Program-made: the position numbers and the translations under genes
From: Zhaonella formicivorans
Lineage (GTDB): Bacteria; Bacillota; DUOV01; Zhaonellaceae
Length of the DNA: 64,000 nt
Assembly: GCF_004353525.1 (NCBI RefSeq)
Contig: NZ_CP085524.1
Coordinates: 2,935,001-2,999,000 of the forward strand
Reading direction: 5' to 3'
Shown: positions 10,273-55,592 of the stretch, piece after piece
Position numbering within the stretch: the stretch's first letter is position 1
Layout of the letters: every line of letters starts with the position of its first letter
The notes under the pieces: generated by a model
What the model saw: only the letters and a program-made list of their open reading frames with translations
The model's database searches: none
What the model was told of the DNA's origin: nothing

Positions 10273-10500
10273 GCGGCTACCAGCTGTCAGCCATCAGCAG
10301 CCAGCTACCAGCCTCAGCTTTTAGCTAAGAACAATTTCACCCGAAATAATTAAACAAATAAAATTATCGAGATACACCTAAAATTTTAAAATTATTATTG
10401 AACGTATTGGTATGCTGCTTGAGTAAAGTTTTGCAAACGACTGTTAGCTGAGGGCTGACAGCTGATTACTGACTGCTGAGGGCTAAAGGCTGTTGGCTCA
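10273..10500. repeat. Heptad repeat element 1 (two inverted arms)
   Basis: The left arm (10273-10327) runs CAGCTGT CAGCCAT and onward in 7-bp steps. The right arm (10442-10500), read on the opposite strand, runs CAGCCCT CAGCAGT CAGTAAT CAGCTGT in the same 7-bp register. About 114 bp of AT-rich sequence separates the arms. The pair fills the ispF-gltX gap and could fold into a long imperfect hairpin. No gene is seen in it. Confidence 0.85.
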
Positions 10501-10535
10501 ATATATGCACTATACATGATATTGGAGGTTGTTCT

Positions 10536-11999
10536 GTGGAAAGAGTTCGTTTACGGTTTGCCCCCAGCCCTACTGGGCCGTTACATATAGGGGGTGCCCG
10601 TTCGGCATTATTTAATTATTTATTGGCTAAAAAAGCCGGGGGAGATTTTATTTTAAGAATAGAGGATACCGATTTGGAACGTTCCAGTCGGGAATCGGAG
10701 GAGAATATCAAGGAATCCCTGCGCTGGCTGGGCATTGAGTGGAACGAAGGAATCGATGTGGGAGGGGGTTTTGGGCCTTACCGCCAGACGGAACGCCTGG
10801 ATATTTACCGGCACTACGTGGACAAACTGCTGGAAGCCGGGCTGGCTTATCGCTGTTATTGTTCGGAAGAAGAATTGGAGCGTGAGCGGAAAGAGCTGAT
10901 GGAGAGAGGCCAATTGCCCCGCTACCTGGGAAAATGCCGTAATTTGAGCTGTGAGCAAGAGGAAGAATATAAGAGACAGGGAAGAAAGCCGGTGATCCGT
11001 TTCCGGGTTCCCGAAAATGAAACTATTGTTATTAATGACCTGGTGCGGGGGGAAGTAACTTTTGAATCGAGTGGTATCGGTGATTTTGTAATTGTCAAAT
11101 CCGATGGGATTCCTACCTATAATTTTGCCGTAGTCATTGACGACGTTACCATGGGAATCACCCATATTATCCGGGGAGAGGAGCATCTCTCCAACACTCC
11201 CAGGCAGGTTTTGCTTTACCGGGCCCTGCAGTTTAAAGAGCCTCAGTTTGCCCATATTTCTCTGATCCTGGGCAAGGACCGGACCAAAATGAGCAAGCGG
11301 CACGGCTCCACTTCCGTTGTGAATTACCGGGAGGCAGGCTATTTGCCGGAAGCGCTGGTCAATTTCCTGGCGCTGCTCGGTTGGTCGCCGGAGGGCGAAG
11401 AAGAGATCTTTTCTATGGAGCAACTTATTCAGCAGTTCAGCCTGGACCGGGTGGCTAAAAATCCTGCTGTCTTCGATATGGACAAGCTGAAATGGATTAA
11501 TGGCTACTACATCAGGCAGAGCTCGGTAGAGCGCATCACGGATTTAGCCATACCTTACTTGCAAGAGGCCGGCCTGCTCTCAGGGGAAATAGATGCTAAG
11601 CGCTATGAGTGGCTTAAAAAGATGGTATCTGCGGTTAAAAATAAAATTGCCTGTCTCAGTGAAATTTCCGAACATGCTGCTGTCTTTTTCCCCATCAGGG
11701 TTGATATTGTAGATGATGAGGCTAAGGTTTTAGTTCAAGAAGAGCAGGTTCCTGAAGTTATGCGCTTGCTGGTACGCAAACTACGGGAGGCGGGTGAACT
11801 TACCCCGGAAAACGTAAAAGGGATCTTGAAAGCAATAACCAAGGAGTTAAACTTGGGCGGGAAAAAAGTGTTTATGCCCATCCGCATTGCGCTGACCGGC
11901 CGGATGCACGGGCCCGAATTACATGATCTCATTCCCCTCATTGGTGTGAATGAAGTTGTGAGACGGATAAAGCAGTCACTGCAGCTGAACCTCGATTAA
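10536..11999 (+). CDS. gltX: Glutamyl-tRNA synthetase
   Basis: 487 aa class I synthetase. The HIGH-type motif is HIGGARSALFN near residue 18 and the KMSKS-type motif is KMSKRHG (about 252). A zinc-binding CYCSEEEL...CRNLSC region lies between, and the anticodon-binding helical domain is C-terminal. GTG start 8 nt after TGGAGG. The gltX-cysE-cysS order is that of Bacillus, but here cysE has its own promoter and T-box leader. Confidence 0.96.
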   Translation: MERVRLRFAPSPTGPLHIGGARSALFNYLLAKKAGGDFILRIEDTDLERSSRESEENIKESLRWLGIEWNEGIDVGGGFGPYRQTERLDIYRHYVDKLLEAGLAYRCYCSEEELERERKELMERGQLPRYLGKCRNLSCEQEEEYKRQGRKPVIRFRVPENETIVINDLVRGEVTFESSGIGDFVIVKSDGIPTYNFAVVIDDVTMGITHIIRGEEHLSNTPRQVLLYRALQFKEPQFAHISLILGKDRTKMSKRHGSTSVVNYREAGYLPEALVNFLALLGWSPEGEEEIFSMEQLIQQFSLDRVAKNPAVFDMDKLKWINGYYIRQSSVERITDLAIPYLQEAGLLSGEIDAKRYEWLKKMVSAVKNKIACLSEISEHAAVFFPIRVDIVDDEAKVLVQEEQVPEVMRLLVRKLREAGELTPENVKGILKAITKELNLGGKKVFMPIRIALTGRMHGPELHDLIPLIGVNEVVRRIKQSLQLNLD

Positions 12000-12006
12000 C
12001 AGCTTA

Positions 12007-12036
12007 TTGACACAATTCCTCTAATCAGAGTATAAT
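12007..12036 (+). promoter_or_regulatory. Promoter of the cysE-cysS transcript
   Basis: TTGACA at 12007-12012, 18-bp spacer, TATAAT at 12031-12036; both boxes are consensus. It starts 7 bp after gltX and drives the T-box leader. Confidence 0.88.
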
Positions 12037-12042
12037 AACCAA

Positions 12043-12351
12043 AAATGAAGCTGGGGCTGATAGTTGCCGGCTTAATAGACATGCTTATAGCCCATAAGCC
12101 CTAAAAGCAATGAACAGGTAGAGTAGCTAATTAACTTGCCAACCAGAGAATACTGCCTTGTGGTGGAAGCAGTTTGGCAGCGGGAATTAGTGAAGTGCGC
12201 CTTGGAGCTGAAGGCCGAACTCCTAGTAGGCTTTTCCGGTTGACACCGTTATTGTCATGGGATGAAAAATCCCTTTAGAGTGGGGTTGATTAACCCAAGC
12301 AGAGTGGAACCGCGGAACCTTTCGCCTCTGGATAGAGGTGAAAGGTTTTTT
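12043..12351 (+). promoter_or_regulatory. T-box leader, cysteine-specific, with terminator
   Basis: The T-box AGAGTGGAACCGCG is at 12301-12314. It is followed by a terminator with stem AACCTTTCGCCTC/GAGGTGAAAGGTT and a T-run (12316-12351); T-box and terminator stem are mutually exclusive. Upstream is a long Stem I region with AGAGAA (12146). The candidate specifier TGC (12196-12198) follows GAAG and precedes a purine, which reads cysteine, in accord with cysE and cysS downstream. Uncharged tRNA-Cys would prevent termination. Confidence 0.9.
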
Positions 12352-12394
12352 ATTACTTGAAAAATGTGCATTCTATAAACAAGGGGGAGATAGA

Positions 12395-13093
12395 ATGTTC
12401 AGCCGAATTAAAAAGGATATTCAAGCAGTTTTTGAACGGGATCCGGCTGCGCGGAGCAGTTTGGAGATTTTATTGACTTACCCGGGCATTCATGCTATTT
12501 TATTACATCGTTTGGCCCACTGGTTTTATTGCAAAAAAATGCCCCTTATAGCCAGGGTGATTTCCCAATTCAGCAGATTTTTAACCGGAATAGAAATCCA
12601 CCCTGGGGCTAAAATCGGCAACGGTCTTTTTATTGACCACGGCATGGGGGTTGTAATTGGCGAAACTACAGAAATAGGCGACAACGTGACTCTTTACCAG
12701 GGAGTTACTTTAGGCGGTACCGGCAAGGAAAAGGGAAAAAGGCACCCGACCATAGGCAACAATGTGGTGATCAGTGCAGGAGCTAAAGTTCTTGGTTCAA
12801 TTAAAATCGGCGATAACGTCAAAATCGGGGCCGGTTCCGTAGTCCTGCGGGATGTGCCGCCTAATTGCACGGTGGTGGGTGTTCCGGGAAAAATTGTAGT
12901 GCGCAATGGTAAAAATATTGCTGATACTTCTTTTAGCACTATTGACTTGCACCATAATCAATTGCCGGATCCGGTGGCTGAAATGATTTTGTGCCTGCAG
13001 CGGCAGATAGAAAGGCTACAGCACCGTATCGAAGAATTGGAGGGGAAAATACAGCATGACACTGACAGTATACAATACGCTGACCAGAAGTAA
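12395..13093 (+). CDS. cysE: Serine O-acetyltransferase
   Basis: 232 aa, the short bacterial/plant-like form. A helical N-terminus is followed by a left-handed beta-helix of hexapeptide repeats (about 65-175) with [24 protein letters not shown] and the acetyl-CoA-binding segment [13 protein letters not shown]. It makes O-acetylserine for cysteine synthesis in the cytoplasm. An in-frame upstream ATG lies in the terminator stem of the leader; ATG 12395 has AAGGGGGAGA before it. The last 38 bp overlap cysS. Confidence 0.95.
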
Positions 13094-14510
13094 GGAAGAG
13101 TTTAAGCCGGGGCAAGCGGGACAGGTGAGAATGTATGTCTGCGGCCCCACTACCTATAACTATATTCATTTGGGCAATGCCCGCCCTCTGGTAGTGTTTG
13201 ATACTATCAGGAGATATTTGCAATACAAGGGCTATACGGTGAAGTTCGTACAGAATTTTACGGATATAGATGATAAAATTATTTGCCGGGCAAAAGAGGA
13301 AGGGGAAGAGGCCTTGAAGCTCGCGCAAAAATATATCAGAGAGTTTTTTAAGGATGCTAAAGCTTTGGGGGTAAGGGAGGCCGATGTGCATCCCAAGGTA
13401 AGCGAGCATATTCCCCAAATTATAGCAATGGTCCAGGAGTTGGTTGATAAAGGCCATGCCTATGTGGTTGACGGGGACGTTTACTTTGATGTGCGCAGTT
13501 TCAAAGATTACGGCAAGCTTTCCGGCCGCTCCCTGGATGAACTGCAGGCCGGAGCCAGGGTGGAGGTAGACCAGCGCAAAAAAGATCCATTGGATTTTGC
13601 CCTCTGGAAGTCGGCCAAACCGGGCGAACCTGCCTGGGACAGCCCCTGGGGACCGGGACGTCCCGGGTGGCACATTGAATGCTCCGCCATGTCCCTGGAA
13701 TACCTTGGGGCGCCCTTTGATATTCACGGTGGCGGGTTTGACTTGATTTTTCCTCACCACGAAAATGAATTGGCCCAGTCTGAAGCTGCAACAGGTAAGC
13801 CTTTTGTGAACTACTGGCTGCATAACGGCTTCATTACAGTTAACCAGGAAAAGATGTCAAAGTCCCTGGGCAATTTCTTTTTGGTAAGGGATATCTTGAA
13901 GAAGTTTCCGGGGGATGTAGTCCGGTTTTTCCTTTTGGCTACTCATTACCGCAGCCCCTTGGATTTTGATGACAAGAAATTGGAAGAACATCAGAAGGCT
14001 TTGGAAAGAGTAAAGAATACTGTGCGCAACCTCAAGGAAGCCCTGGAAAGAACAGGACGGCAGAATTTTGACGAAATCAGTCCGGTTGATGAACAGTTTA
14101 TAGCCCGCCTGGACAACTTTAAAAAATCTTTGGAAGAGGCTATGGATGATGATTTCAACACAGCCTTGGCGATTGGAGTCCTTTTTGATTTATGCCGGGA
14201 AACAAACAGTTATATCAGCAGCACGGGTGCCGCCCCGGGCTCTGGCCCTGGGTTGGAAAAAGCCTGGCAGCTTTTAAAAGTTTTTGCAGATGACATTTTG
14301 GGAATTGTCAATACGGAAGATTTGAGTGGGAATTTAGCTGCCTCCCCAGCGGACGCCTTAGTCGATGAACTCATGAATGTTTTGTTGGAGGTACGCCAGG
14401 AAGCCCGCGCTAAAAAAGACTGGCATACTGCCGATGCCATTCGTGACAAATTAAAGGCTATCGGGATAACAATTGAAGATACACCTCATGGACCCAGATG
14501 GAAACGGTAG
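13056..14510 (+). CDS. cysS: Cysteinyl-tRNA synthetase
   Basis: 484 aa class I synthetase. [19 protein letters not shown] contains the first zinc Cys and the HIGH-type motif, HIECSAM the second Cys and HHENE a zinc His; KMSKSLGNF is the KMSKS loop (about 269). The C-terminus is the DALR anticodon domain. Its start lies inside cysE, so supply of cysteine and its charging are coupled under one T-box. Confidence 0.96.
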
Positions 14511-14524
14511 GGGGCATTTTAAAA

Positions 14525-14944
14525 GTGCAGTTCCCTCTTAACACAGAAAAGATTGCAGACCCGGAATTAATCTCTCCCTTGGCTTTAGCCTATTTGGGCG
14601 ATGCTGTTCTGGAGTTATATGTGCGCACCTCTTTAGTAGCCCAGGGCCAATACAAGGTGAATATGCTTCACAAACAGGCCGTTAAATTTGTAAACGCGAC
14701 CGCCCAGGCCAACCTGCTCAGGGATATCGAAGAAAGTTTGACGGAAGAGGAACTGGCTGTGGCGAAAAGGGGGAGAAATGCTAAGTCAGGGCACGTTCCC
14801 AAAAATGCGGAAATGATCGATTACCGTTACAGCACTGGATTAGAAACCTTGATCGGTTATTTGTTTCTGAAAGGGAGAAGCGAGCGAATCAGGGAGATTT
14901 TCGACAGATTGCAAGAAATGGTCGGAGAGGAGACGAGGAAATAA
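14525..14944 (+). CDS. mrnC: Mini-ribonuclease III
   Basis: 139 aa. A lone RNase III catalytic domain without the dsRNA-binding domain: LALAYLGDAVLELYVR carries the catalytic Asp, and KRGRNAKSGHVPKNA is family-typical. In Bacillus it matures 23S rRNA ends. Two starts are possible: ATG 14498, overlapping cysS and poorly spaced, or GTG 14525 with AGGGGG nine nt upstream. The second fits family N-termini better. Confidence 0.92.
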   Translation: MQFPLNTEKIADPELISPLALAYLGDAVLELYVRTSLVAQGQYKVNMLHKQAVKFVNATAQANLLRDIEESLTEEELAVAKRGRNAKSGHVPKNAEMIDYRYSTGLETLIGYLFLKGRSERIREIFDRLQEMVGEETRK

Positions 14945-14946
14945 CC

Positions 14947-15627
14947 TTGAGGGTAAAACTCATTAATTATACGCCTGAACCGGAGAGAACAGTGGCCGCG
15001 GCAGCTCGCCTTTGTTACTCCTCGTGCGGCGCTGAAAAACTTATGGAGGAATTAACTGATGAAGGTATTGCAAGCTTTTTAAAAAAGCTTGTTAGTCTAG
15101 GACATTTCTCTCCATTGGAACATGTTTCTTTTAGCTTTGCTATCGAAGGGGTAAGCAGAAACCTGTCCCATCAGCTGGTAAGACACCGGATAGCATCTTA
15201 CTCCCAAAAATCCCAGCGCTATGTAAATGAAGAAGGTTTTAACTATGTTATTCCGCCCAGCATCTTAAAGAATTCTGATGCTCTGGCGTTATTTAGGGAA
15301 AAAATGGCTGATTTGCAGAGGGCTTATGAATCTTTGGCCCAACTTGTGCCTAAAGAAGATGCCCGTTACGTGCTGCCGGGGGCTTGCGAAACAAAGTTAG
15401 TTGCTACTTTTAATGGCCGGAGCCTCTTGAACTTTTTTCAGCACCGCTGCTGCCAGAGGGCCCAGTGGGAAATCCGGGCTTTGGCCGGGGAAATGCTCCG
15501 GCTGGTGAGAGAAGTGGCCCCCAATCTCTTTGCTAAAGCGGGTCCAACCTGTGTAACCCACGGGATCTGCTATGAAGGAAAAATGTCCTGTGGCAGAATC
15601 ACAAACATAGTTAGCAGGGAAGAATAA
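14947..15627 (+). CDS. thyX: Flavin-dependent thymidylate synthase
   Basis: 226 aa. The ThyX motif RHRIASYSQKSQRYV (RHRxxSxxxxSxR) is intact around residue 78, with HFSPLEHVSFSF before it and FNGRSLLNFFQHRCCQRAQW near the C-terminal half. It methylates dUMP using FAD, NADPH and methylene-tetrahydrofolate. TTG start two nt after mrnC, with GGAGACGAGG upstream. Clustering with mrnC and rlmB is seen in Desulfotomaculum-type Clostridia. Confidence 0.95.
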   Translation: MRVKLINYTPEPERTVAAAARLCYSSCGAEKLMEELTDEGIASFLKKLVSLGHFSPLEHVSFSFAIEGVSRNLSHQLVRHRIASYSQKSQRYVNEEGFNYVIPPSILKNSDALALFREKMADLQRAYESLAQLVPKEDARYVLPGACETKLVATFNGRSLLNFFQHRCCQRAQWEIRALAGEMLRLVREVAPNLFAKAGPTCVTHGICYEGKMSCGRITNIVSREE

Positions 15628-15630
15628 CGT

Positions 15631-15700
15631 CAGTTGTTAGTTTTTAGTTGATGGCTGTTGGTTATTTATTTCACTAACAACCAACAACCAACAACTAAGG
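15631..15700. repeat. Heptad repeat element 2
   Basis: CAGTTGT TAGTTTT TAGTTGA TGGCTGT on the plus strand, then a short centre and ACTAACAACCAACAACCAAC, the same 7-bp pattern on the other strand. It is a compact inverted pair in the thyX-rlmB gap. Confidence 0.85.
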
Positions 15701-15711
15701 TAGGTGTGGAT

Positions 15712-16449
15712 ATGTTTGATACCATTGAGGGACGAAATCCTGTTCTGGAAGCCCTGCGGGCGGGTAGGCCCATTAACAAGATTTTTTTAGCTAAGGGCGG
15801 GTCCGAGCGATTTGCCCAAGATGTTGTTGGCCTGGCCAAAGAGCGGGGTATTCCCGTGCAATGGGTAACCCGCCAAAAGCTGGATGAAGAATCCCGGACC
15901 GGAAACCATCAAGGCGTGGTAGCCTTGGCCAGTCCTATAGAATATGTGGAAATAGAAGACATCATAGCCAGGGCAAAAGAAAAAAATGAGGATCCCTTTA
16001 TTGTTATTTTAGATCATCTGGAGGATCCTCATAACCTGGGTGCCATTTTACGGACTGCTGATGCGGTGGGAGTGCATGGGGTAATTATCCCCAAGCGCAG
16101 GGGGGTCAGTGTAAACAGCTCGGTTGCTAAAACCTCTGCAGGCGCTGTAGAATTTGTGCCTGTAGCCCGGGTTGCTAATTTGGTGCAAGCTATCGGGAAG
16201 TTAAAGGAGCTGGGATGCTGGGTTGTGGGTACCGACGCAGAGGCGGCTGAAGTTTTCTACACAGCCAACCTGCAAGGCCCCTTAGCCATAGTTGTTGGCA
16301 GTGAGGGAAAAGGTATAAGCAGGTTAGTTAAGGAAAATTGTGATTTTACAGTGAAAATACCTATGGCCGGCAGGATAAATTCATTAAATGCTTCTGTAGC
16401 AGCTTCAGTTATTCTATATGAAGTGTACCGGCAAAGAATTGCTCAGTGA
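15712..16449 (+). CDS. rlmB: 23S rRNA 2'-O-methyltransferase, RlmB/TrmH family
   Basis: 245 aa. A short SpoU substrate-binding N-terminus (IEGRNPVLEALRAGRP) precedes a SPOUT knot domain with motif 1 DHLEDPHNLGAILRTADA, motif 2 VVGSEGKGISRLV and motif 3 SLNASVAASVILYE. It probably methylates G2251 of 23S rRNA. An upstream in-frame ATG at 15658 runs through the heptad repeat; ATG 15712 follows AGGTAGGTGTGG and matches family N-termini. Confidence 0.93.
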   Translation: MFDTIEGRNPVLEALRAGRPINKIFLAKGGSERFAQDVVGLAKERGIPVQWVTRQKLDEESRTGNHQGVVALASPIEYVEIEDIIARAKEKNEDPFIVILDHLEDPHNLGAILRTADAVGVHGVIIPKRRGVSVNSSVAKTSAGAVEFVPVARVANLVQAIGKLKELGCWVVGTDAEAAEVFYTANLQGPLAIVVGSEGKGISRLVKENCDFTVKIPMAGRINSLNASVAASVILYEVYRQRIAQ

Positions 16450-16578
16450 CCAGTTCAAATTACAGCCAAACGTTCACAGGACGCTCTAAGGCTTGCCAAA
16501 TAAGAGCAGCTGCGGCACAATGGTTATCCAATTTTTTATCCTTCTGCTGGGTGGCTGTGGCGTCATGAGTTTCTAATG

Positions 16579-16623
16579 ACTTAGCTGAGGGCTGACAGCT
16601 AACTGCTGATAGCTGATGGCGTA
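16579..16623. repeat. Heptad repeat element 3 (single arm)
   Basis: TTAGCTGAGGGCTGACAGCT and following bases; on the minus strand they read as 7-bp units CAGCTAT CAGCAGT TAGCTGT CAGCCCT CAGCTAA. Only one arm is present, in the rlmB-yacP gap. Confidence 0.8.
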
Positions 16624-16640
16624 ACTAAGGTGGTATTTCG

Positions 16641-18415: not shown

Positions 18416-18491
<76 letters not shown>

Positions 18492-18640: not shown

Positions 18641-18779
18641 TTTAGCGTCGTTTGTCCTTAGTCCTTTGTCGCTAGTCATTAGATTTTAGCTATTCTAATA
18701 AGCTTTAAAGTTACCTGTGTCTCTAAGGACTAATGACCAGCGACTAATGACTCGGCGTAAGCCGCTGCCAAGGACTAGG
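18641..18779. repeat. Heptad repeat element 4 (two inverted arms)
   Basis: Left arm in 7-bp steps: TAGCGTC GTTTGTC CTTAGTC CTTTGTC GCTAGTC ATTAGAT. Right arm from about 18723: CTAAGGACTAATGACCAGCG and on, including a small GGCGTAAGCC hairpin. About 40 bp separate the arms. It occupies most of the tRNA-Thr to tuf gap. Confidence 0.85.
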
Positions 18780-21898: not shown

Positions 21899-21985
21899 GT
21901 CAGTCCTTAGTCCCCAGTCCTTAGTCGTTAGTAAAAGATGAGTGATGGGGCAAGAAACTAAGGACTAACGACCAACGACGGACTT
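21899..21985. repeat. Heptad repeat element 5
   Basis: CAGTCCT TAGTCCC CAGTCCT TAGTCGT TAGT, about 25 bp of centre, then ACTAAGGACTAACGACCAAC. Inverted arms inside the rplK-rplA message. Confidence 0.88.
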
Positions 21986-22805: not shown

Positions 22806-22839
22806 AAGCTTTGTTCCGATAAACAATATATTGTATTAA

Positions 22840-22985
22840 CTGTAGACAGCAGGTGCTTAATGCTTAATGGGTAACCGCCTGCCGAGGTTAGCTGATTTAC
22901 CGAGCTCAAGGTTATAATGCAACGAAGTATGCATAGTGTACCATGAGTATATGTTAGTAATAAGCCTCTGCTGTCTACGGCAGGG
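22840..22985 (+). promoter_or_regulatory. L10 ribosomal-protein leader
   Basis: CTGTAGACAGCAGG (22840-22853) pairs with CCTCTGCTGTCTACGG (22965-22980). Between them lies AGGTGCTTAATG...CCGCCTGCCGAGG, the conserved core of the Firmicute L10 leader. Binding of the L10(L12)4 complex is known to repress rplJL through such leaders; a T-rich stretch after the stem suits attenuation. Confidence 0.85.
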
Positions 22986-23033
22986 GCTTTCCTAATTTAA
23001 CAGCGTAAGAGTGTACGGATAGGAGGTGTGATC

Positions 23034-23577: not shown

Positions 23578-23662
23578 GTCAGTTACCAGTCGCCAGTCAT
23601 CAGTCACCAGTAATGCAGCATGAAACCGGGGACTAGGGACTAGGGACTGAGGACTAGACTAA
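23578..23662. repeat. Heptad repeat element 6
   Basis: CAGTTAC CAGTCGC CAGTCAT CAGTCAC CAGT, then GGGGACTAGGGACTAGGGAC and on. Inverted arms between rplJ and rplL. Confidence 0.88.
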
Positions 23663-32190: not shown

Positions 32191-32804
<614 letters not shown>

Positions 32805-34966: not shown

Positions 34967-35064
34967 CTAGTCCTTAGTTGTTAGTCGTTAGTTGGATGTA
35001 TTATCTAAGGACTAATGCACGAACTTGAAACTAGCGACTAAGGACTAGCGACTAACGACTGACC
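34967..35064. repeat. Heptad repeat element 8
   Basis: CTAGTCCT TAGTTGT TAGTCGT TAGTTGG on the left; ACTAAGGACTAGCGACTAAC on the right, with a copy of CTAAGGACTAATG in the centre. It fills the fusA-tuf gap and would form a hairpin in the fusA-tuf message. Confidence 0.88.
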
Positions 35065-36837: not shown

Positions 36838-36898
36838 TTGGTCGTTAGTCATTAGTCGTTAGTTCTTAGTTAACTAACAACCAACAACTATCAACTGA
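36838..36898. repeat. Heptad repeat element 9
   Basis: GGTCGT TAGTCAT TAGTCGT TAGTTCT TAGT, then ACTAACAACCAACAACTATC. A tight inverted pair with almost no centre, between rpsJ and rplC. Confidence 0.88.
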
Positions 36899-41161: not shown

Positions 41162-41357
41162 AGAAATCAGAGACTTGACCACAGCTGAAATTTTAAAAAA
41201 AATAGATGACCTAAAACAGGAACTCTTTAATTTGCGTTTTCAACATGCCACCGGCCAACTTGATAACCCTATGCGGATTCGGGAAGTGCGCCGGAGCATA
41301 GCAAAGGCTAAAACGGTTTTAAAGGAAAGAGAACTCAAAGAGGCTAAAGCACTGTAA
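41151..41357 (+). CDS. rpmC: 50S ribosomal protein L29
   Basis: 68 aa. [20 protein letters not shown] and [19 protein letters not shown] typical. ATG 41151 after GGTGGTGAAGG within the rplP end; GTG codons upstream in frame are less likely. Confidence 0.95.
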
Positions 41358-41385
41358 AGCTAACAGCTGGCAGCTGTCAGCAATG
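41357..41385. repeat. Heptad repeat element 10 (short)
   Basis: AAGCTAACAGCTGGCAGCTG and TCAGCAATG: three units CAGCTGG CAGCTGT CAGCAAT directly after the rpmC stop. Confidence 0.75.
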
Positions 41386-43828: not shown

Positions 43829-44371
43829 TTGTCTAGGATTGGTAGAGCGCCAATAACTATCCCGGCTGGTGTTGAAGTCAAGATAGACGGCAATGTGGTT
43901 AGTGTTAAAGGACCGAAGGGGACTTTGACCAGGGAATTCCACAAAGATATCAATATTGCTGTAGAAGACGGTCAAATCAAAGTAACTCGTCCTAGCGACA
44001 ACAAAGAGCATCGTTCCCTGCATGGTTTAACAAGAGCATTGTTAAATAACATGGTAGAGGGTGTAACCAAAGGTTTTCAGAAAGGTTTGGAACTGGTTGG
44101 CGTTGGTTACAGGGCAGCAAAACAGGGAAATAAATTAGTATTGACTGTCGGATACAGTCACCCGGTAGAAATGATTCCCGGAGATGGGATTGAAATTGAA
44201 GTTCCCGCTCCTAACAAGGTAATAGTTAAAGGCATTGACAAGGAAAAGGTAGGAGCATTTGCTGCTAATGTCCGTGCTGTAAGAGAGCCTGAACCTTATA
44301 AGGGCAAGGGTATTAAGTACGAGAACGAAGTAATTCGTCGTAAGGTCGGTAAGACCGGAGCGAAGAAATAA
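43829..44371 (+). CDS. rplF: 50S ribosomal protein L6
   Basis: 180 aa. [20 protein letters not shown] start, [19 protein letters not shown] end. TTG 43829 lies 7-9 nt after AGGAGG; the upstream in-frame GTG overlaps that site. Confidence 0.95.
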
Positions 44372-44400
44372 CAACTAACAACTATAAACTAACAACTATT
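44369..44400. repeat. Heptad repeat element 11 (short)
   Basis: AACAACTAACAACTATAAAC and TAACAACTATTG; on the minus strand TAGTTGT TAGTTTA TAGTTGT TAGTTGT. It begins at the rplF stop and runs up to the rplR ribosome binding site. Confidence 0.8.
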
Positions 44401-48697: not shown

Positions 48698-48725
48698 GCT
48701 TGTCTTACAAAGCGGGGGTGCGAGC

Positions 48726-49025
48726 ATGGTTGAAGGACTGCGACTGGGGCAGTTAGTTCATTCCACAGCAGGTCGCGACAAAGACAGGGTATTTTTAATA
48801 GTAGCGTTATCAGGTGACTCTTTTGCCTACCTAGCAGATGGTGATTTGCGCAAAATCAACAATCCCAAAAAGAAAAATATTAAGCACTTACAGGCCACCA
48901 AACTGGTTGCCGACACCATCGCAGATAAATTGAAAAACGGTGAGGCTGTTAATAACGCTGAAATCCGTAAAGCTATAGCTGATCTTATAAGTGCAAAAGT
49001 TGACACCGCTGGACAAGGAGGTTGA
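48726..49025 (+). CDS. KOW-domain RNA-binding protein (L14e-like)
   Basis: 99 aa. The first ~55 residues ([20 protein letters not shown], then [13 protein letters not shown]) match the small KOW/L14e-type proteins found between map and infA in Clostridia; the last 40 residues are helical and charged. Function unknown; RNA or ribosome binding is inferred. ATG after GCGGGGG; its stop is 4 nt before infA. Confidence 0.8.
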
Positions 49026-49029
49026 TCGT

Positions 49030-49248
49030 GTGTCCAAACAGGATGTGATTGAAGTTGAAGGCAGGGTTTTGGAGCCGCTTCCCAACGCCATGTTTAAGGT
49101 GGAATTGGATAACGGACATAAAGTTCTTGCCCATGTTTCAGGCAAAATCAGAATGAATTTCATCCGGATTCTCCCTGGGGATAGAGTTACAGTAGAGCTG
49201 TCGCCTTATGATTTGACCAGAGGTAGAATCGTTTATCGCTTCAAATAA
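49030..49248 (+). CDS. infA: Translation initiation factor IF-1
   Basis: 72 aa, exact family length. [20 protein letters not shown] and [19 protein letters not shown] make the S1/OB fold. GTG 49030 after AAGGAGG; the longer frame from 48991 would overlap the KOW gene. Confidence 0.96.
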
Positions 49249-49297
49249 AGTAAAATCGCAAGGAAGCTAGTGGGCTTATTGCAAAGGAGGGTTTTAA

Positions 49298-49411
49298 ATG
49301 AAAGTAAAACCGTCGGTGAAACCCATCTGTGAAAAATGTAAAATAATCAAGAGGAAAGGCCGGGTAATGGTTATCTGCGAAACTCCTAAGCACAAGCAGA
49401 AACAAGGCTAA
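49298..49411 (+). CDS. rpmJ: 50S ribosomal protein L36
   Basis: 37 aa: [20 protein letters not shown], then [17 protein letters not shown]. The CXXC...C...H zinc set is complete. ATG after AAAGGAGGG. Confidence 0.96.
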
Positions 49412-49413
49412 TC

Positions 49414-49497
49414 TAGCTATCAGCCACCAGCTATCGGCCATCAGCAATTAAAATGTTTAAGCTAACGGCTGAAAGCTGCAAGCTGACAGCTGACCTG
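49414..49497. repeat. Heptad repeat element 12
   Basis: TAGCTAT CAGCCAC CAGCTAT CGGCCAT CAGCAAT on the left; right arm from about 49459, AAGCTAACGGCTGAAAGCTG and on. Inverted arms immediately after rpmJ. Confidence 0.87.
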
Positions 49498-49512
49498 TAA
49501 GAATTGCAGTAT

Positions 49513-49567
49513 TAGCTTGTCCGGCGCGGCTGCCCGGGTTTTGCCCGGATCCGGACAAGTTAAGCTA
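49513..49567 (+). promoter_or_regulatory. Strong hairpin in the rpmJ-rpsM gap
   Basis: CTTGTCCGG (49516-49524) pairs with CCGGACAAG (49551-49559), with a second stem CCGGG/CCCGG inside and TAGC/GCTA outside. No T-run. It might be a leader structure or processing site for the alpha operon; I do not recognise a family. Confidence 0.5.
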
Positions 49568-49622
49568 TATCCCGGTGTTGGGCCGATGCAATAATTGTGC
49601 GTATACATTGGGAGAGAAAAGG

Positions 49623-49703
49623 ATGCTGGTTGTTTGCTGTAAGAAAGTAAATCTCGATCCGGTTGTGTTTACCCTCAAGCAACTGGTTGAAACTAACAAC
49701 TAA
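49623..49703 (+). CDS. Possible 26-aa small ORF upstream of rpsM
   Basis: ATG with GGGAGAGAAAAGG just before it; reads MLVVCCKKVNLDPVVFTLKQ and LVETNN. The stop is supplied by heptad repeat 13, so it may be the remains of a longer gene, a leader peptide, or chance. No family recognised. Confidence 0.25.
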   Translation: MLVVCCKKVNLDPVVFTLKQLVETNN

Positions 49704-49728
49704 AAACTAACAACTGGCAACTGACCTG
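49688..49728. repeat. Heptad repeat element 13 (single arm)
   Basis: GAAACTAACAACTAAAAACT and AACAACTGGCAACTGACC: minus-strand units of the CAGTTGC / TAGTTTT / TAGTTGT type, 36 bp before rpsM. Confidence 0.8.
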
Positions 49729-49764
49729 AAATAGAACTACTAAGTAAAATGGAGGTGTAGCTTA

Positions 49765-50136
49765 ATGGCACGTATTTCCGGTGTAGATTTACCCCGGGAT
49801 AAGCGGATAGAGATCGCCCTTACCTATATCTATGGTATTGGGAAGCCGACCGCTCAAGAGATCTTAGCCCGTACCGGAATTAACCCCGATACAAGGGTGC
49901 GGGATTTAACTGAAGATGAGGTTGCAAAGCTGCGTGAAGTTATTGATAAGAACTATGTGGTGGAAGGGGACTTACGCCGTGAAGTTTCCCTCAATATTAA
50001 GCGTTTGATTGAAATTGGGTCTTATAGGGGCCTGCGTCATCGCCGGGGTTTACCGGTCCGGGGACAGCGCACTAAGACTAATGCCAGAACAAGAAAAGGT
50101 CCGAGACGGACTGTGGGTGTAAAACGTAAGAAGTAA
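49765..50136 (+). CDS. rpsM: 30S ribosomal protein S13
   Basis: 123 aa. [20 protein letters not shown] start, [20 protein letters not shown] end. ATG after GGAGGTG. Opens the alpha cluster after a 353-bp gap filled by repeats 12 and 13 and a hairpin. Confidence 0.97.
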
Positions 50137-50168
50137 TATGTCACAAAACGAAAGGGGGATAATGATTA

Positions 50169-50558
50169 ATGGCAAAGAGGCCAACCCGCACGAGAAGAAG
50201 AGACCGTAAAAACATTGAAAATGGTGTTGCCCATATTAAATCCACTTTCAACAATACAATCGTTACTATTACCGATAAAGCCGGAAATGCTATTTCCTGG
50301 GCCAGTGCAGGCGGCGTAGGATTTAAAGGATCAAGAAAAAGCACTCCTTTTGCCGCCCAGATGGCTGCCGAGCAAGCTGCTAAAGCAGCTATGGAGCATG
50401 GCTTAAAAGAAGTTGAATGCTATGTAAAAGGACCTGGTGCCGGACGGGAAGCGGCAATCAGATCCCTTCAGGCAGCAGGTCTGGAAGTGAGCATGATCAA
50501 AGATGTTACCCCTATTCCACATAACGGCTGCAGACCGCCGAAGCGCAGAAGAGTATAG
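50169..50558 (+). CDS. rpsK: 30S ribosomal protein S11
   Basis: 129 aa. [20 protein letters not shown] and [18 protein letters not shown] end. ATG after AAAGGGGG. Confidence 0.97.
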
Positions 50559-50572
50559 GAGGTGTATAAAGG

Positions 50573-51199
50573 TTGGCAAGATATAAAGAAGCCGTTTGCC
50601 GGCTATGTCGCCGGGAAGGAACAAAATTATATCTTAAGGGAGACCGCTGCTATTCTGACAAGTGTGCAGTAGACAGAAGGGCTTATGCCCCCGGACAGCA
50701 CGGACAGAGCAGAAAGAAGCAGTCTGAATATGGCATTCAGCTGAGGGAAAAGCAAAAAGCCCGTAGGATTTATGGTGTCCTGGAGAAACAATTCAGAAAT
50801 TATTTTGAGAAAGCAGACCGGCAAAAAGGGGTTACCGGTGAGAATCTATTGCGCCTATTAGAAAGACGCCTTGATAATGTAGTTTACCGCTTGGGTTTTG
50901 CCAGCTCCAGACCCGAGGCACGCCAACTGGTTAGACACGCGCACTTTACAGTTAACGGTAAGAAAGTAAATATTCCCTCTTACCAAGTGCGTGTGGGCGA
51001 TGAGATCGCGGTAAAAGAAGGCAGCATCAGTTTAGAGAAGTTCAAGGAACTGGCAGAATTAGCTGCCCATAAGACTCCGCCGGCATGGTTAGAGGTTGAT
51101 GCTAAAGCCTTGCGGGGCAGGGTCGTAGCCCTTCCATCCAGAGAAGATATAGATATCCCGGTGGAAGAACACTTAATTGTCGAGTTGTATTCCAAATAA
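50573..51199 (+). CDS. rpsD: 30S ribosomal protein S4
   Basis: 208 aa. Zinc knuckle CRLC...CYSDKC near the N-terminus (C+ form), S4 RNA-binding domain from [23 protein letters not shown] start after AGGAGGTG. Assembly initiator. Confidence 0.96.
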
Positions 51200-51251
51200 T
51201 GTCCATTGGGGTTCTTGAAAGAAAGGCTCAGGTCTCGGAAGGAGGGTATTT

Positions 51252-52199
51252 ATGTTAGAAATCGAAAAACCGAAGATTGAATGTGTCGAGCGGAGTGAGG
51301 ATAATAGGTACGGCAAGTTTGTGGTGGAGCCCCTGGAAAGGGGTTACGGCATCACGTTGGGCAATTCCCTCCGGAGGATCCTGCTTTCATCTCTGCCCGG
51401 CGCAGCAGTTACTTCCATTAAAATTGATGGCGTACTTCATGAGTTTTCCACAATACCGGGCGTAGTAGAAGATACAACAGATATTATTCTTAATTTGAAG
51501 TCGTTATCCATTAAGCTTCATACCGATGAGCCGGTAACAGTGCGAATTGAAGCAGAGGGAGAGGGAGAAGTTACTGCTGGCGACATCATAGCTAACGCTG
51601 ATGTAGAGATTTTGAACCCTGACCTGCATATAGCTACCTTGGATAAAGACGGCAGGCTGTTTATGGATATTGTGATCGAAAAAGGCCGGGGCTATGTACC
51701 AGCTGAAAAAAATAAAAAAGAGGAGCAGGTTATCGGAGTGATTCCGGTTGACTCTCTATTTACTCCGGTCTTACGCGTAAACTATACTGTAGAAGATACA
51801 CGTGTAGGTCAGATTACAGACTATGATAAACTAACTTTGGAAGTTTGGACAGATGGGAGCATTGCCCCCGATGAGGCTGTTAGCTCCTCTGCCAAGATTC
51901 TAAACGACCATCTGAAACTTTTCATGGGCTTAACGGAAAAAATAAGCGACGAAGTTACGATGGTGGAAAAAGAAGAAGAGAAGAAGGATAAGCTTCTGGA
52001 GATGACCATTGAGGAACTGGACCTATCAGTTCGTTCCTACAATTGTCTAAAACGGGCCGGTATCAATACTGTGGAAGAATTGATCCAGCGGACCGAAGAA
52101 GACATGATGAAGGTTAGAAACTTGGGACGCAAGTCTTTGGAAGAAGTACAACAAAAGCTTGCGGAATTGAATCTCTCATTACGCAAGTCAGATGAGTAG
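51252..52199 (+). CDS. rpoA: RNA polymerase alpha subunit
   Basis: 315 aa. N-terminal dimerisation domain with [21 protein letters not shown]-terminal domain from [20 protein letters not shown] with NLGRKSLEE for UP-element and activator contacts. ATG after GGAAGGAGGG. Confidence 0.98.
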
Positions 52200-52216
52200 A
52201 AAAGGAGGGTCGGACC

Positions 52217-52555
52217 ATGGCATACCGTAAACTGGGCATGAAATCCAGCCACCGTCAGGCCATGTTTAGAAATATCGTCACTTCCTTACTCAAAGAAGAG
52301 CGCATTGAAACCACTGAACCGAGGGCTAAAGAATTGAAAAGAATAGCTGAAAAAATGATTACCTTGGGGAAGAGGGGAGACCTGCACGCCAGGCGACAGG
52401 CTTTAGCGTATCTCATGGAAGAAGATGTTGTGACGAAACTATTTGAAACTATTGCGCCGCGCTATAAGGAGCGCCAGGGAGGATATACCAGGCTGATTAA
52501 AACGGGCTACCGCCGCGGCGATGGTGCCCCCATGGTGCTGGTAGAATTAGTGTAG
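52217..52555 (+). CDS. rplQ: 50S ribosomal protein L17
   Basis: 112 aa. [20 protein letters not shown] start, [12 protein letters not shown] end. ATG after AAAGGAGGG. Last gene of the ribosomal block before a terminator. Confidence 0.97.
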
Positions 52556-52590
52556 TAGCGGCAGAGAAAAGGTGCTTTTATTAGTTTCAG

Positions 52591-52647
52591 GGATTAAGTC
52601 AGGGTCAGGTAGCGGGAACGCAACCATTTCCTGACTTAATTTTTACC
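52591..52647 (+). terminator. Terminator after rplQ
   Basis: TTAAGTCAGG pairs with CCTGACTTAA across about 30 nt, followed by TTTTTACC. It closes the alpha cluster transcript. Confidence 0.8.
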
Positions 52648-52706
52648 TTGAAACGGTTGTGTACTCCTTGGGAATATTTCCTTAAATGCAAAGATGTAAT
52701 TTTGAT

Positions 52707-52879
52707 AGAAGTTGTTAGTTGTTAGTTTCCAGGCGCTCTTCCAGGACTTTTCTTTATAAAAAAGTGAGGGAAGATATTTAAATTGGATCTTTTTTATTTT
52801 ATTATAAAACTGGTCTAGCTCTTGCTGTAAAGGAATACAAGCAAACCAACAACTAATAACTAGCAACTAATAACTAGCA
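52707..52879. repeat. Heptad repeat element 14 (two arms)
   Basis: Left arm GTTGTTAGTTGTTAGTTTCC (52711-52730), right arm ACCAACAACTAATAACTAGC and on (52846-52879). About 113 bp of AT-rich sequence lies between, similar in length but not in sequence to the centre of element 1. Fills the rplQ-ecfA1 gap. Confidence 0.85.
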
Positions 52880-52899
52880 TAAGAGCGTGTGGTGTAACC

Positions 52900-53721
52900 A
52901 TGATTAAAATTGAGAAACTTTATCATAAATACAAAGCCGGCACTCCCCAGGAAGTAATAGCGCTAAACAATATTAACTTGGAAATCAAAAAAGGGGAATT
53001 TGTGGTCATCATAGGCCATAATGGTTCCGGCAAATCAACTCTGGCTAAACATTTAAATGGTTTACTGCTTCCTACCGAGGGGAAGGTTACGGTGAACGGT
53101 ATGGATACCAGGAGCCGGGAGAAAATCTGGGAGATCCGCAAAGAAGTGGGGATGGTCTTCCAAAACCCTGATAACCAGCTGGTAGCCACCATGGTGGAAG
53201 AAGACGTTGCCTTTGGCCCCGAAAATTTGGGCATTCCTCCGGCAGAAATAAGGCAGCGGGTAGATCAGGCCCTGGAACTGGTAGGTATGTCAGAATTTAA
53301 GAAACGGGAGCCCCATTATCTCTCCGGCGGACAAAAACAGAGGGTGGCGATTGCAGGAATTATTGCCATGCGGCCAAGCTGCCTGGTGCTGGACGAACCT
53401 ACGGCTATGCTGGATCCAAAAGGCAGAAAAGAAGTGATGGATACCATTACCAGCCTCAACCGGAATGAAGGTTTAACAATCGTCCATATTACCCACTATA
53501 TGGAAGAGGCGGTCAATGCCCATCGCCTGGTTGTGATGGAACGAGGGGAGATCGTGAAAGAGGGGACCCCCAGGGAGATCTTTCAGCAAGTTGAAATGCT
53601 GAAAGGTTTGCGTATGGATGTGCCCCAGATGACTGAGTTGGCATATCGACTGCGCCAAGAAGGCCTCAAAATACCGGCAGATATTCTCACTGTTGCGGAA
53701 ATGGTGGATTGCTTATGCTGA
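52900..53721 (+). CDS. ecfA1: ECF transporter ATPase EcfA1
   Basis: 273 aa. Walker [16 protein letters not shown]-loop VFQNPDNQL, signature [13 protein letters not shown], Walker [14 protein letters not shown], switch His ITHYMEE. One of two ATPases energising the shared ECF module for vitamin and metal S-components, none of which is in the window. The next ATPase overlaps by 7 bp. ATG after GTGTGGTG. Confidence 0.95.
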
Positions 53722-54578
53722 TCAAGATAGAGTCATTGTCACATGTCTATAAACCGAATACTCCTTATGAAACCAGGGCACTGGACGACATTAGCCTGGA
53801 AATTACTTCCGGACAGTTCGTAGGGCTGATCGGTCATACCGGCTCGGGCAAGTCCACGCTAATTCAACATCTTAACGGTTTGCTGCTTCCTACCAGCGGG
53901 AGGGTACTTATAGGGAACGACGAAATAACTCCCAAAACCACGCGACTAAAAAATATCCGGCATAAAGTGGGCATTGTCTTTCAGTATCCGGAACACCAGC
54001 TTTTTGAGGAAACGGTCTATGCAGACATCGCCTTTGGGCCCAAAAATTTAGGCTGGAGCGAAGAAAAAATAGCCGAACGGGTGAAGGCTGCCATGGCTGC
54101 TGTCAACCTGGATTTCGATAGTCTGAAGGACCGTTCCCCTTTCGCCTTGAGCGGCGGGCAAATGAGGCGTGTGGCCATTGCTGGCGTTTTGGCCATGGAG
54201 CCGCAGGTATTGATTTTAGACGAGCCAACGGCAGGACTGGACCCAGGGGGCAGGGATGAAATACTGACAGAGATAGCGTCCCTTCATCAACAGCTAAAAA
54301 TAACTATTATTCTTGTTTCCCACAGCATGGAGGATATCGCCCGCTATGCCCAGCGGGTTATTGTCATGCACCAGGGGAAGGTGGTAATGGACGGTACACC
54401 CCGGGAAATATTTTTAAAAGCCCGGGATTTAGAAAAGTTGGGACTTGGCGTCCCCATGGTGACAACCCTGATGCACAGACTGGCAGCCAAGGGGTTGAAT
54501 GTGCGTACCGATGTGTTGACGGTAGAAGAGGCTAAAGAAGAAATACTGAACTGGTGGCGAGGTAACAAAAATGCTTAA
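53715..54578 (+). CDS. ecfA2: ECF transporter ATPase EcfA2
   Basis: 287 aa. Walker [35 protein letters not shown], signature [13 protein letters not shown], Walker [14 protein letters not shown], and a C-terminal extension typical of EcfA2. Pairs with EcfA1. A TTG at 53709 is in frame; ATG 53715 is preferred. Overlaps ecfT by 8 bp. Confidence 0.95.
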
Positions 54579-55371
54579 AGATATCACTATCGGACAATAT
54601 ATACCTGGGGAATCAATAGTCCACCGCCTTGACCCGCGAACTAAAATACTGGCTGTACTTTTTTATATGACGGGCCTCTTTTTACTTGACCGTCTTGAAA
54701 CATACGTAGGAGTAGCTATCCTGACTTTAGTGTTAATTTTGCTTTCTCAGATCCCGGTAAGTTACCTGTTGAAAGGCCTTAAACCAATACTCATTATTTT
54801 AGTATTTACCTTTGTCCTGCATTTGTTTCTCACTCCGGGGACTGAAGTGTTGAGGATAGGCCCGTTAAAAATAACCATCGAGGGTATCCGGCAGGGTGTA
54901 TTCATGTCCCTGCGCCTGATCTTTCTAATTCTTGTTACTTCTCTGCTAACGCTGACCACTTCACCCATCAGCCTGACCGACGGCCTGGAAAGCCTCATGG
55001 GCCCGGGTAAGAGAATTGGGCTTCCGGCCCACGAATTGGCGATGATGATGAGCATTGCCTTGCGGTTTATTCCTACCCTGTTGGAAGAGACTGACAAGAT
55101 CATGAAAGCCCAGATGGCCAGGGGCGCTGATTTTGAAAGCGGCAACCTCTGGCAGCGGGCCAAAAACATGGTGCCTCTGTTGGTGCCGCTGTTTGTAGGT
55201 GCGTTCCGCCGCGCCGATGAGCTGGCGATGGCCATGGAAGCCCGCTGCTACCGTGGAAGCCAGGGTAGGACTAAAATGAAGCAGTTGGTGATGGCATTAA
55301 GGGACTATGTAGCTTTGCTCTTGATGTTTGGGTTTATGGTCTTGGCTATTGTATATAGAGTAATAACGTAG
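54571..55371 (+). CDS. ecfT: ECF transporter transmembrane protein EcfT
   Basis: 266 aa, five to six membrane helices. Two Ala-Arg-(Gly/Cys) coupling motifs, AQMARGADFE and MEARCYRGS, contact the ATPases. The start overlaps ecfA2. Together the three genes form the group II energising module in its usual place after rplQ. Confidence 0.94.
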   Translation: MLKDITIGQYIPGESIVHRLDPRTKILAVLFYMTGLFLLDRLETYVGVAILTLVLILLSQIPVSYLLKGLKPILIILVFTFVLHLFLTPGTEVLRIGPLKITIEGIRQGVFMSLRLIFLILVTSLLTLTTSPISLTDGLESLMGPGKRIGLPAHELAMMMSIALRFIPTLLEETDKIMKAQMARGADFESGNLWQRAKNMVPLLVPLFVGAFRRADELAMAMEARCYRGSQGRTKMKQLVMALRDYVALLLMFGFMVLAIVYRVIT

Positions 55372-55385
55372 CATCTAAGTTATTG

Positions 55386-55592
55386 CAGTTGTTAGTTGTT
55401 AGTTGCTGGTTATTAGTTTTCAGCCTTCAGCTGTCAGCCTTCAGCTATGAGTTATCAGCTCTCAGTGGCTAGTTACTGGTGACTGACTGTTGACCAATAG
55501 GTAGCCGTAGGCCTGTGCAAAGACTTAGAGTAACGACCAAGGACTAAAGACGAGGTTAAAAGCTGATGCTGGTAACTAAACTGGTGACTTGA
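55386..55592. repeat. Heptad repeat element 15 (longest array)
   Basis: The left arm has at least 13 consecutive 7-bp units mixing subtypes: CAGTTGT TAGTTGT..., then CAGCCTT CAGCTGT CAGCCTT..., then CAGTGGC TAGTTAC. The right arm (about 55528-55592) reads AGTAACGACCAAGGACTAAA and CTGGTAACTAAACTGGTGAC. It fills the ecfT-truA gap up to the truA ribosome binding site. Confidence 0.9.

Follow-up and report, generated by a model that had tools for sequence, protein, structure and literature searches.

The window analysed here, a stretch of 64,000 nucleotides of the Zhaonella formicivorans genome, carries ispF, gltX, thyX, rlmB, a tRNA cluster, tuf, fusA, numerous ribosomal protein genes and truA, and the gaps between them contain arrays of a degenerate heptamer that the earlier note had written as YAGYYNN. 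The PWM/chain scan, which served as the array caller, identified 25 such arrays in the window, covering all 15 places named by the earlier note, versus 0, 0, 0, 2 and 0 (about 0.4) in five first-order Markov shuffles of the same sequence. The places correspond to 14 intergenic gaps and not 15, because the arrays at 49.4 and 49.7 kb both lie in the rpmJ-rpsM gap (Table 1). Inverted arms were indeed found in most places: 10 of the 15 have both arms at threshold, four (16.6, 41.4, 44.4 and 49.7 kb) have the minus arm only, and at 55.4 kb there is a long plus array with a minus arm under the main threshold. Arrays do lie inside ribosomal operons. If rlmB is called from the upstream TTG, the YAG arm 3' of thyX overlaps the 5' end of its ORF.

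Table 1. Heptamer arms in the window (position 1 is its first letter).
Feature	Location	Coordinates	Strand	Remarks
YAG arm, CAGC subtype	ispF-gltX gap	10274..10315	+	
CTR arm, partner of 10274..10315	ispF-gltX gap	10437..10499	-	PWM/chain scan
YAG arm, TAGTT subtype	3' of thyX	15631..15665	+	PWM/chain scan
CTR arm, AACAACC units	before rlmB	15677..15697	-	PWM/chain scan
Lone CTR arm	3' of rlmB	16581..16615	-	PWM/chain scan
YAG arm, TAGTC subtype	tRNA cluster-tuf gap	18652..18693	+	PWM/chain scan
CTR arm	tRNA cluster-tuf gap	18726..18753	-	PWM/chain scan
YAG arm	rplK-rplA gap	21901..21935	+	PWM/chain scan; arrays also in G002 gap
CTR arm	rplK-rplA gap	21947..21981	-	PWM/chain scan
YAG arm, CAGTC subtype	rplJ-rplL gap	23580..23614	+	an array also in G002 gap
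CTR arm	rplJ-rplL gap	23622..23656	-	PWM/chain scan
YAG arm, TAGTT	rpsL-rpsG gap	32198..32225	+	PWM/chain scan
CTR arm	rpsL-rpsG gap	32267..32315	-	PWM/chain scan
YAG arm, adjoins hairpin TTTGCCAAAGGCAAAC	fusA-tuf gap	34968..34995	+	PWM/chain scan
CTR arm	fusA-tuf gap	35027..35061	-	PWM/chain scan
YAG arm	rpsJ-rplC gap	36839..36873	+	absent from both relatives (G001, G002)
CTR arm	rpsJ-rplC gap	36870..36897	-	PWM/chain scan
Lone CTR arm	rpmC-rpsQ gap	41356..41383	-	PWM/chain scan
CTR arm	whole 27-bp rplF-rplR gap	44371..44398	-	PWM/chain scan
YAG arm	rpmJ-rpsM gap	49414..49448	+	PWM/chain scan
CTR arm	rpmJ-rpsM gap	49458..49492	-	PWM/chain scan
Lone CTR arm, second array of the gap	rpmJ-rpsM gap	49689..49723	-	PWM/chain scan
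YAG arm	rplQ-ECF transporter ATPase gap	52709..52736	+	PWM/chain scan
CTR arm	rplQ-ECF transporter ATPase gap	52849..52876	-	PWM/chain scan
13-unit long YAG array, mixed subtypes	ECF-T component gene-truA gap	55386..55476	+	

The unit is best described as NYYAGYY, with AG almost invariant, C/T prevalent at four positions and one position free, and arrays usually comprise 4–5 units. The YAGYYNN of the earlier note is thus a real degenerate heptamer, except that its second N (position 7) is partly constrained (T 62%, C 17%), which leaves each unit a single base that is truly free. Unsupervised analysis with Tandem Repeats Finder identified 7 as the commonest period (79 arrays, versus 22 for the runner-up, period 12); 63 of the 79 period-7 units fit YAGYYNN (10% of random heptamers do) and 78 of the 79 arrays fit NARYYNN (background 33%). 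The autocorrelation proposed earlier gave the expected peak: in a genome-wide sample, intergenic DNA scored an identity of 0.289 at lag 7 (0.308 for the window) versus about 0.265 at adjacent lags, lags 14 and 21 are likewise elevated, and the same analysis found no lag-7 peak in coding DNA. When the motif letters were altered, counts mostly dropped (113 arrays for YAGYYNN versus 7–53 for other 7-bp motifs); with an altered period, YAGYNN at period 6 scored 138 arrays, above the 113 of YAGYYNN, a count that plausibly stems from codon-pair periodicity. In the whole genome the 4-unit pattern has 458 matches and the reversed pattern 43, although the latter falls short of a fully independent control, since units of the CAGTTGA type fit the reversed pattern too. 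GAGTTNN occurs as a side type of the unit in this genome.

Further statistics were based on 864 kb of the 3.31-Mb genome, i.e. 40 sampled pieces of 20 kb together with the window. In these 864 kb the density is 1.08 arrays per kb of intergenic DNA versus 0.021 in ORFs of at least 100 aa, an approximately 50-fold difference, and arrays occupy 17% of co-directional gaps versus 6% of other gaps (Fisher p=0.0005). The TAG within the unit, to which exclusion from genes had been attributed, explains it only in part: CAGCTNT and CAGCCNT arrays contain no TAG, yet are mostly intergenic. Lone CTR arms lie at a median of 24 nt before the next start and lone YAG arms at a median of 5 nt after a stop (Mann-Whitney p=0.025). 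One 16S-23S rRNA spacer, located outside the window, holds three facing-arm elements; neither these arrays nor the rule of arm order described below figured in the earlier note.

The strongest new fact is the order of the arms, which is fixed as YAG, then CTR. Adjacent opposite arms follow it at 46:1 in the 864-kb sample of Z. formicivorans and at 24:1 in other Bacillota; the strict YAG-first pattern has matches in four genomes, while the strict CTR-first pattern matched none of 22. Viral contigs gave one YAG-first match and none in reverse order, too few to use, and the strict-pattern polarity search with GAGTYNN arrays gave no pairs. The loop between facing arms ranges from a few bp to about 120 bp. 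The two arms of an element agree in subtype, but within a subtype their free positions do not co-vary, pairing at the free position being slightly lower for true arms (0.44) than for swapped arms (0.52); precise base pairing is therefore not the conserved trait. The imperfect hairpin suggested by the earlier note is possible (median folding z -2.3, below -2 in only 69% of elements). Selection of an exact hairpin by base pairing was rejected, as true arms pair no better than same-subtype swapped ones, and exact-hairpin accounts are weakened by free-position complementarity no better than chance.

Comparison of orthologous gaps with two members of the same family, G001 and G002, revealed clean, insertion-like presence/absence of the arrays, most of which are missing from both relatives, and intact Shine-Dalgarno-like sequences downstream. 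G001 has no arrays at all, and none were found at 80 rplA loci of other Clostridia. The fusA-tuf array is common to two genera, that of G002 being the other (concatenated proteins 88.6% identical), and G001 belongs to neither; the hairpin beside its YAG arm was found only there and at the G002 orthologue. Its presence in both may, however, stem from the array having formed at that site more than once and not from constraint. A plasmid search with the fusA-tuf element as query gave no match. Between the copies of a 4,963-bp duplicate (99.05% identical) the array differs by exactly 14 bp, i.e. two units. In copies 82% identical outside the arrays, 46% of comparisons show a difference at position 6 and 4–7% at positions 3–4, hence the positions of the unit evolve very differently. 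The earlier note knew of no named Firmicute family of this design; the family is not confined to Zhaonella, as arrays of at least 5 units occur, sporadically, in 38 of 399 Bacillota genomes and heptamers published from other phyla match the motif (PMC4679880, PMC4692102). Genomes G000, G002, G150 and G059 are rich in arrays. We file the arrays as a new degenerate, strand-polar form of intergenic heptamer repeats, not as ordinary gene leaders.

The explanation that we prefer, at a probability of roughly one half, is that of a dispersed intergenic short-tandem-heptamer family with an origin in slippage or recombination, tolerance through hairpins and a strand-specific reader of the core. Its starting points are the unit grammar, the arm order, clean presence/absence, change by whole units and location in co-directional gaps and an rRNA spacer. 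The elements have YAG units in the 5' arm and complementary CTR units in the 3' arm, head to head around a loop. Slippage, together with local duplication or recombination among units, would create and resize the arrays. They would persist mainly in transcribed gaps, where facing arms may fold into a self-contained imperfect hairpin that leaves the adjacent stop codon and the ribosome-binding site untouched. A putative strand-specific reader of the YYAGYY core, most probably a protein that binds or processes nucleic acids, would hold the core and the order of the arms constant, leaving the seventh base to drift. Single copies would be mostly dispensable and the neighbours not regulated gene by gene. 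Arm order and fixed core do not follow from slippage alone, which counts against this explanation, and neither of two candidate trans factors (Y1 transposase, TRAP) separates array-rich from array-free genomes.

Or perhaps the arrays are miniature mobile elements of the REPIN or MITE type, whose heptamer arms would be stems recognised by a transposase in trans? The insertion-like pattern between relatives, a core (about GGCTTTTTCCGCAAAAGCCATACATGCAACTAAGG) shared by at least 10 sampled elements at roughly 70–88% mutual identity and a Y1 transposase encoded in genome G000 agree with this, but we consider it rather unlikely, as the flanks of 167 arrays have no common end sequence, lengths vary by whole units and many arrays are single-armed. 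A comparison by eye showed no target duplication in the gaps, but the relatives' flanks are too diverged for this to weigh much. The linker GCATGTATTYCTCTGGGGTCAG is common to a small subset only, a relaxed search giving 21 mostly unrelated matches versus 5 for its reversal. The link to Y1 transposases was rejected, since Y1_Tnp occurs with and without arrays: array-free relatives (G001, for example) have it just the same, and none was found in array-rich G150.

By analogy with the omega/ParB system of plasmid pSM19035, the arrays might be operator- or centromere-like sites for a small DNA-binding protein acting cooperatively at a 7-bp step. Cooperative binding of unspaced direct and inverted heptads is a proven design, and arrays of 4–5 units match the four-repeat minimum of omega/ParB (PMC9499535). 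A constrained core with one free base would also suit protein recognition. This reading appears unlikely nonetheless: hundreds of dispersed sites, a strict arm order with variable loops, the preference for co-directional gaps and the presence in an rRNA spacer are all unlike a partition site. The omega heptad moreover differs from YYAGYYN, which counts against it.

It is still more doubtful that the arrays act at the RNA level, with an RNA-binding protein or the ribosome reading them in mRNA, as has been suggested for the TAACTGA repeats of Beggiatoaceae. Their location in transcribed gaps is compatible with such control, as are the lone CTR arms near starts and lone YAG arms near stops, TAACTGA also being found upstream of starts (PMC4679880). 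However, relatives do not carry the same arrays in their orthologous essential operons, G001 manages without any, and the downstream Shine-Dalgarno-like sequences stay intact. A link to the TRAP protein was rejected, as TRAP is encoded in array-bearing and array-free genomes alike. TRAP binds (G/U)AG repeats, whose known spacing of 2–3 nt gives no 7-nt step.

We see little chance that the arms are made by a strand-specific enzyme that extends free 3' DNA ends with degenerate YAGYYNN heptamers, after which the ends are joined; such an enzyme could be telomere-like, RNA-templated or terminal-transferase-like. If true, 3'-end addition would put the YAG arm first and the CTR arm second whatever the lineage. 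It would also give arms that share a subtype yet are independent in detail, arrays with a single arm, a lack of fixed ends and clean gain between genes. That the arrays are ordinary structured leaders or belong to known RNA families, as their location in leaders and intercistronic gaps might suggest, is hardly credible and was rejected: the only Rfam matches were a T-box, an L10 leader, tRNAs and rRNAs, all of them clear of the arrays, and the relatives' gaps mostly lack arrays.

Heptamer repeats are on record from several phyla, so far without explanation. As Zhaonella shows, at least some of them share a loose grammar and a single order of the arms, and they are tolerated inside ribosomal and rRNA operons while absent from members of the same family. 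Any mechanism must account for the arm order, which is a sharp prediction, and the within-family contrast makes the search for the responsible factor tractable.

Among known systems, the arrays agree with the short tandem heptamer repeats (STRR / TAACTGA) in period 7, many intergenic copies and 7-nt length steps; unit types are numerous, with position 6 free and four C/T positions, and a near-invariant TAACTGA unit in MacGregor's sense was not encountered. The TAACTGA direct repeats of Beggiatoaceae, Cyanobacteria and Bacteroidetes (MacGregor 2015, PMC4679880) are likewise intergenic, in part within ribosomal operons, taxonomically sporadic and variable in 7-nt indel steps. On the opposite strand and rotated, TAACTGA reads CAGTTAT, a YAGYYNN fit. 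TAACTGA itself represents a CTR-type strand and lies mostly just upstream of start codons (PMC4679880), as do the lone CTR arms of Zhaonella. In BOGUAY, however, the unit is near-invariant, with single-base variants rare as repeats and one inverted repeat reported in 170 sets, whereas Zhaonella units are degenerate and facing arms common (PMC4679880).

The likeness to cyanobacterial heptamer repeats drawn by the earlier note holds. Tandem, mainly intergenic, multi-copy heptamers are described in PMC4692102, three of them reported from Calothrix PCC 7601, while Nostoc PCC 7120 has GGGGA(C/T)T; the opposite strand of GGGGACT is a rotation of CAGTCCC, a unit found in Zhaonella. These repeats belong to a different phylum, are described there as G-rich with quadruplex potential and, as far as the text covered goes, come with no general arm-order rule, unlike those of Zhaonella. 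The Xanthomonas GGGAATC repeats (PMC4692102) also form degenerate arrays (GGGANTN), intergenic and occasionally inverted, with long repeats at different genes in related species, but a letter check gave no YAGYYNN or NARYYNN fit in any rotation or strand. In the Nostoc trnL intron P6b, heptamers form both stem arms of a transcribed RNA with 7-nt length changes, and class II NNTGAGT rotates to GAGTNNT, resembling the GAGTTNN side type, but this is a single fixed intron site whereas Zhaonella arrays are dispersed (PMC4476775). The pSM19035 omega/ParB units of 7 bp are direct and inverted as in Zhaonella, but they make up the parS site of a plasmid, their protein is known and their consensus is a different one (PMC9499535). 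Finally, Geobacter metallireducens has multi-copy families of sites to which putative regulators are described as binding; these differ in consensus (MTYCTGA, GGACCGG, GTTGCTYN), but are likewise short and tandem, some of them heptanucleotide, and mostly paired on opposite strands (PMC2700814).

The earlier note had placed arrays of the degenerate heptamer YAGYYNN at fifteen places in the window, all of which were borne out by reading of the gaps and by a position weight matrix scan, which called 25 arrays in 14 gaps of the window versus 0–2 per shuffled window. The suggested lag analysis likewise recovered the 7-bp step: intergenic DNA of the window and of a sample of 40 genome pieces of 20 kb exhibits peaks at lags 7, 14 and 21, while the peaks at 7 and 14 are missing from coding DNA of the same set, where the rise at lag 21 is the codon period. 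In an unsupervised tandem-repeat search, period 7 outnumbered every other short period with 79 arrays, of which 63 fit YAGYYNN (vs 10% of random heptamers) and 78 fit the wider form NARYYNN (vs 33%). The genome is a single contig of 3.31 Mb, in which the window spans 2,935,001–2,999,000, and genome-wide statistics cover 26% of the chromosome.

Within arrays, unit positions 2 and 3 are A (89%) and G (97%), positions 1, 4 and 5 are C or T, position 6 takes all four bases and position 7 is mostly T or C; written with the free base first, the unit is NYYAGYY. Across element copies that are 82% identical apart from their arrays, the base differs in 46% of comparisons at position 6, 7% at position 3 and 4% at position 4, and the differences outside position 6 are mostly transitions. 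Uniform neutral decay would not give such position-specific divergence; it requires either a constraint on the core or arrays that are continually formed anew from the core.

An element comprises two facing arms and a loop, one arm with plus-strand units (YAG) and the other with complementary units (CTR); because it is an inverted repeat, the arm order is identical on either strand. Among neighbouring opposite arms at most 250 bp apart in the sample, YAG-first and CTR-first orders occur in a ratio of 46:1 (a test chosen post hoc from the data), and the sole CTR-first pair is the junction between two adjacent elements. The ratio is 24:1 in loci from other Bacillota genomes, which were picked for carrying arrays, a few of them fetched since arm pairs showed in the hit list. 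Among 399 genomes, a strict T-type YAG-first pattern matched only Z. formicivorans, its family relative G002 and two other array-bearing Bacillota, G059 and G150, with raw counts that exceed the distinct elements, as palindromic matches score on both strands and overlapping registers separately. The reverse order, searched for as a fresh prediction, matched none of 22 genomes, including these four.

The two arms share a subtype in 26 of 42 elements (15.6 expected, p=0.001), and true arms pair better than swapped arms at position 4. Within a subtype, true arms have no pairing advantage over swapped ones; at the free position, one of seven considered and uncorrected, their pairing is slightly lower (0.44 vs 0.52, with 99.7% of permutations at or above the observed value). 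The arms of one element are not precise partners. Elements overall fold better than resampled sequence (median z -2.3), although not all do so, 69% being below -2.

Arrays occupy 17% of co-directional gaps versus 6% of convergent or divergent ones (gaps of at least 30 bp, Fisher p=0.0005). Arms that stand alone lie shortly 3' of a stop codon if they are of the YAG kind and shortly 5' of the next start if they are of the CTR kind (p=0.025, 19 cases, likewise a post hoc test); start positions are approximate, since genes of the sample were called simply as ORFs. Neighbours in the window include rplK, rplA, rplJ, rplL, rpsL, rpsG, fusA, tuf, rpsJ, rplC, rpmC, rpsQ, rplF, rplR, rpsM, rplQ and others, as well as rpmJ, assigned from synteny and sequence only. 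Array density drops with distance from the origin, whose position was inferred from GC skew (Spearman -0.48, p=0.002). The gaps holding the T-box and L10 leaders are without arrays. Three facing-arm elements lie in one 16S–23S rRNA spacer, before and after two tRNA genes, with a common frame GGTATGACAAAAGGTC ... GTAATACC around these genes; arrays therefore occur in stable RNA precursors. Other heptamer types were also seen, in the same spacer and in G002, where GAGTTAA, GAGTGAA and GAATTTT arrays follow CAGTC arrays.

Positions of arrays and other features (L-numbers, individual loci in their own coordinates)
Feature	Locus	Position
5S rRNA (Rfam)	window	51-165
T-box leader (Rfam)	window	12101-12332
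thyX	window	14947-15627
Ribosomal L10 leader (Rfam)	window	22822-23002
Region around inferred terminus, nearly without arrays	G000 (Z. formicivorans):C1	about 0.14-1.25 Mb
Three elements in 16S-23S spacer	L112	18880-19600
Second heptamer type, GAGTTNN facing NNAACTC	L112	19285-19367; 19694-19774
Duplicated segment	L100	306-5268; 10601-15548
Composite dispersed element, nested arms, core GGCTTTTTCCGCAAAAGCCATACATGCAACTAAGG	L098	18042
Same	L105	6802
Same	L123	10252; 12829
Same	L125	19076
Same	L106	11703
YAG-first heptamer pair, IMG/VR viral contig	L182	1183-1244

The only other family members among the genomes compared are G001 and G002. G001 has zero arrays; the gene order of the window is largely kept there, and all testable orthologous array gaps are empty. 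The thyX product departs from its neighbours in sharing just 37% identity with the syntenic ORF of G001. G002 carries arrays in the rplK–rplA, rplJ–rplL and fusA–tuf gaps, and the orthologous-gap comparison found none in its rpsL–rpsG, S10-spc-alpha and ECF/truA gaps. The hairpin TTTGCC(A)AAGGCAAAC adjoins the fusA–tuf array in both Z. formicivorans and G002 and was not found at any other locus among those compared; this locus is therefore common to the two by descent. G001 groups with Z. formicivorans in the tree (support 0.968, short internal branch), which at face value would imply that G001 lost its arrays wholesale or that the other two gained theirs independently; whichever holds, the arrays are dispensable on such a timescale. 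Among rplA loci of other Clostridia, 0 of 80 have more than one three-unit match. In the phylum sample, 38 of 399 Bacillota genomes carry one or more five-unit arrays, with Z. formicivorans and G150 far ahead and few, homogeneous arrays in many of the others. G150, from another family, is equally array-rich (contigs C14, C21, C29 and C49), with more homogeneous units, TAGTTGC and CAGTTGA.

A 4,963-bp segment exists in two copies about 10 kb apart that are 99.05% identical, and the array of one copy exceeds that of the other by exactly 14 bp, or two units. A subset of elements with a common core is related by duplication; an end sequence common to all arrays was looked for and not found. With motif, arm order, placement, presence or absence and whole-unit change established, slippage and local duplication may create and resize the arrays, fold-back and confinement to gaps would render them tolerable, and a putative strand-specific reader of the core could explain the fixed core and arm order. 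As candidate trans factors, neither the Y1 transposase nor TRAP separates array-rich from array-free genomes.

Published heptamer repeats include TAACTGA, the other strand of which is a rotation of the YAGYYNN unit (PMC4679880); the same is true of Nostoc GGGGACT (PMC4692102), but not of Xanthomonas GGGAATC. Heptamers likewise form stem P6b in the trnL intron of Nostoc (PMC4476775). Since the TAACTGA and Nostoc GGGGACT heptamers are rotations of YAGYYNN units and no named heptamer family in Bacillota was found in the open-access literature, we call the arrays a variant that belongs with the known heptamer repeats rather than a separate category.
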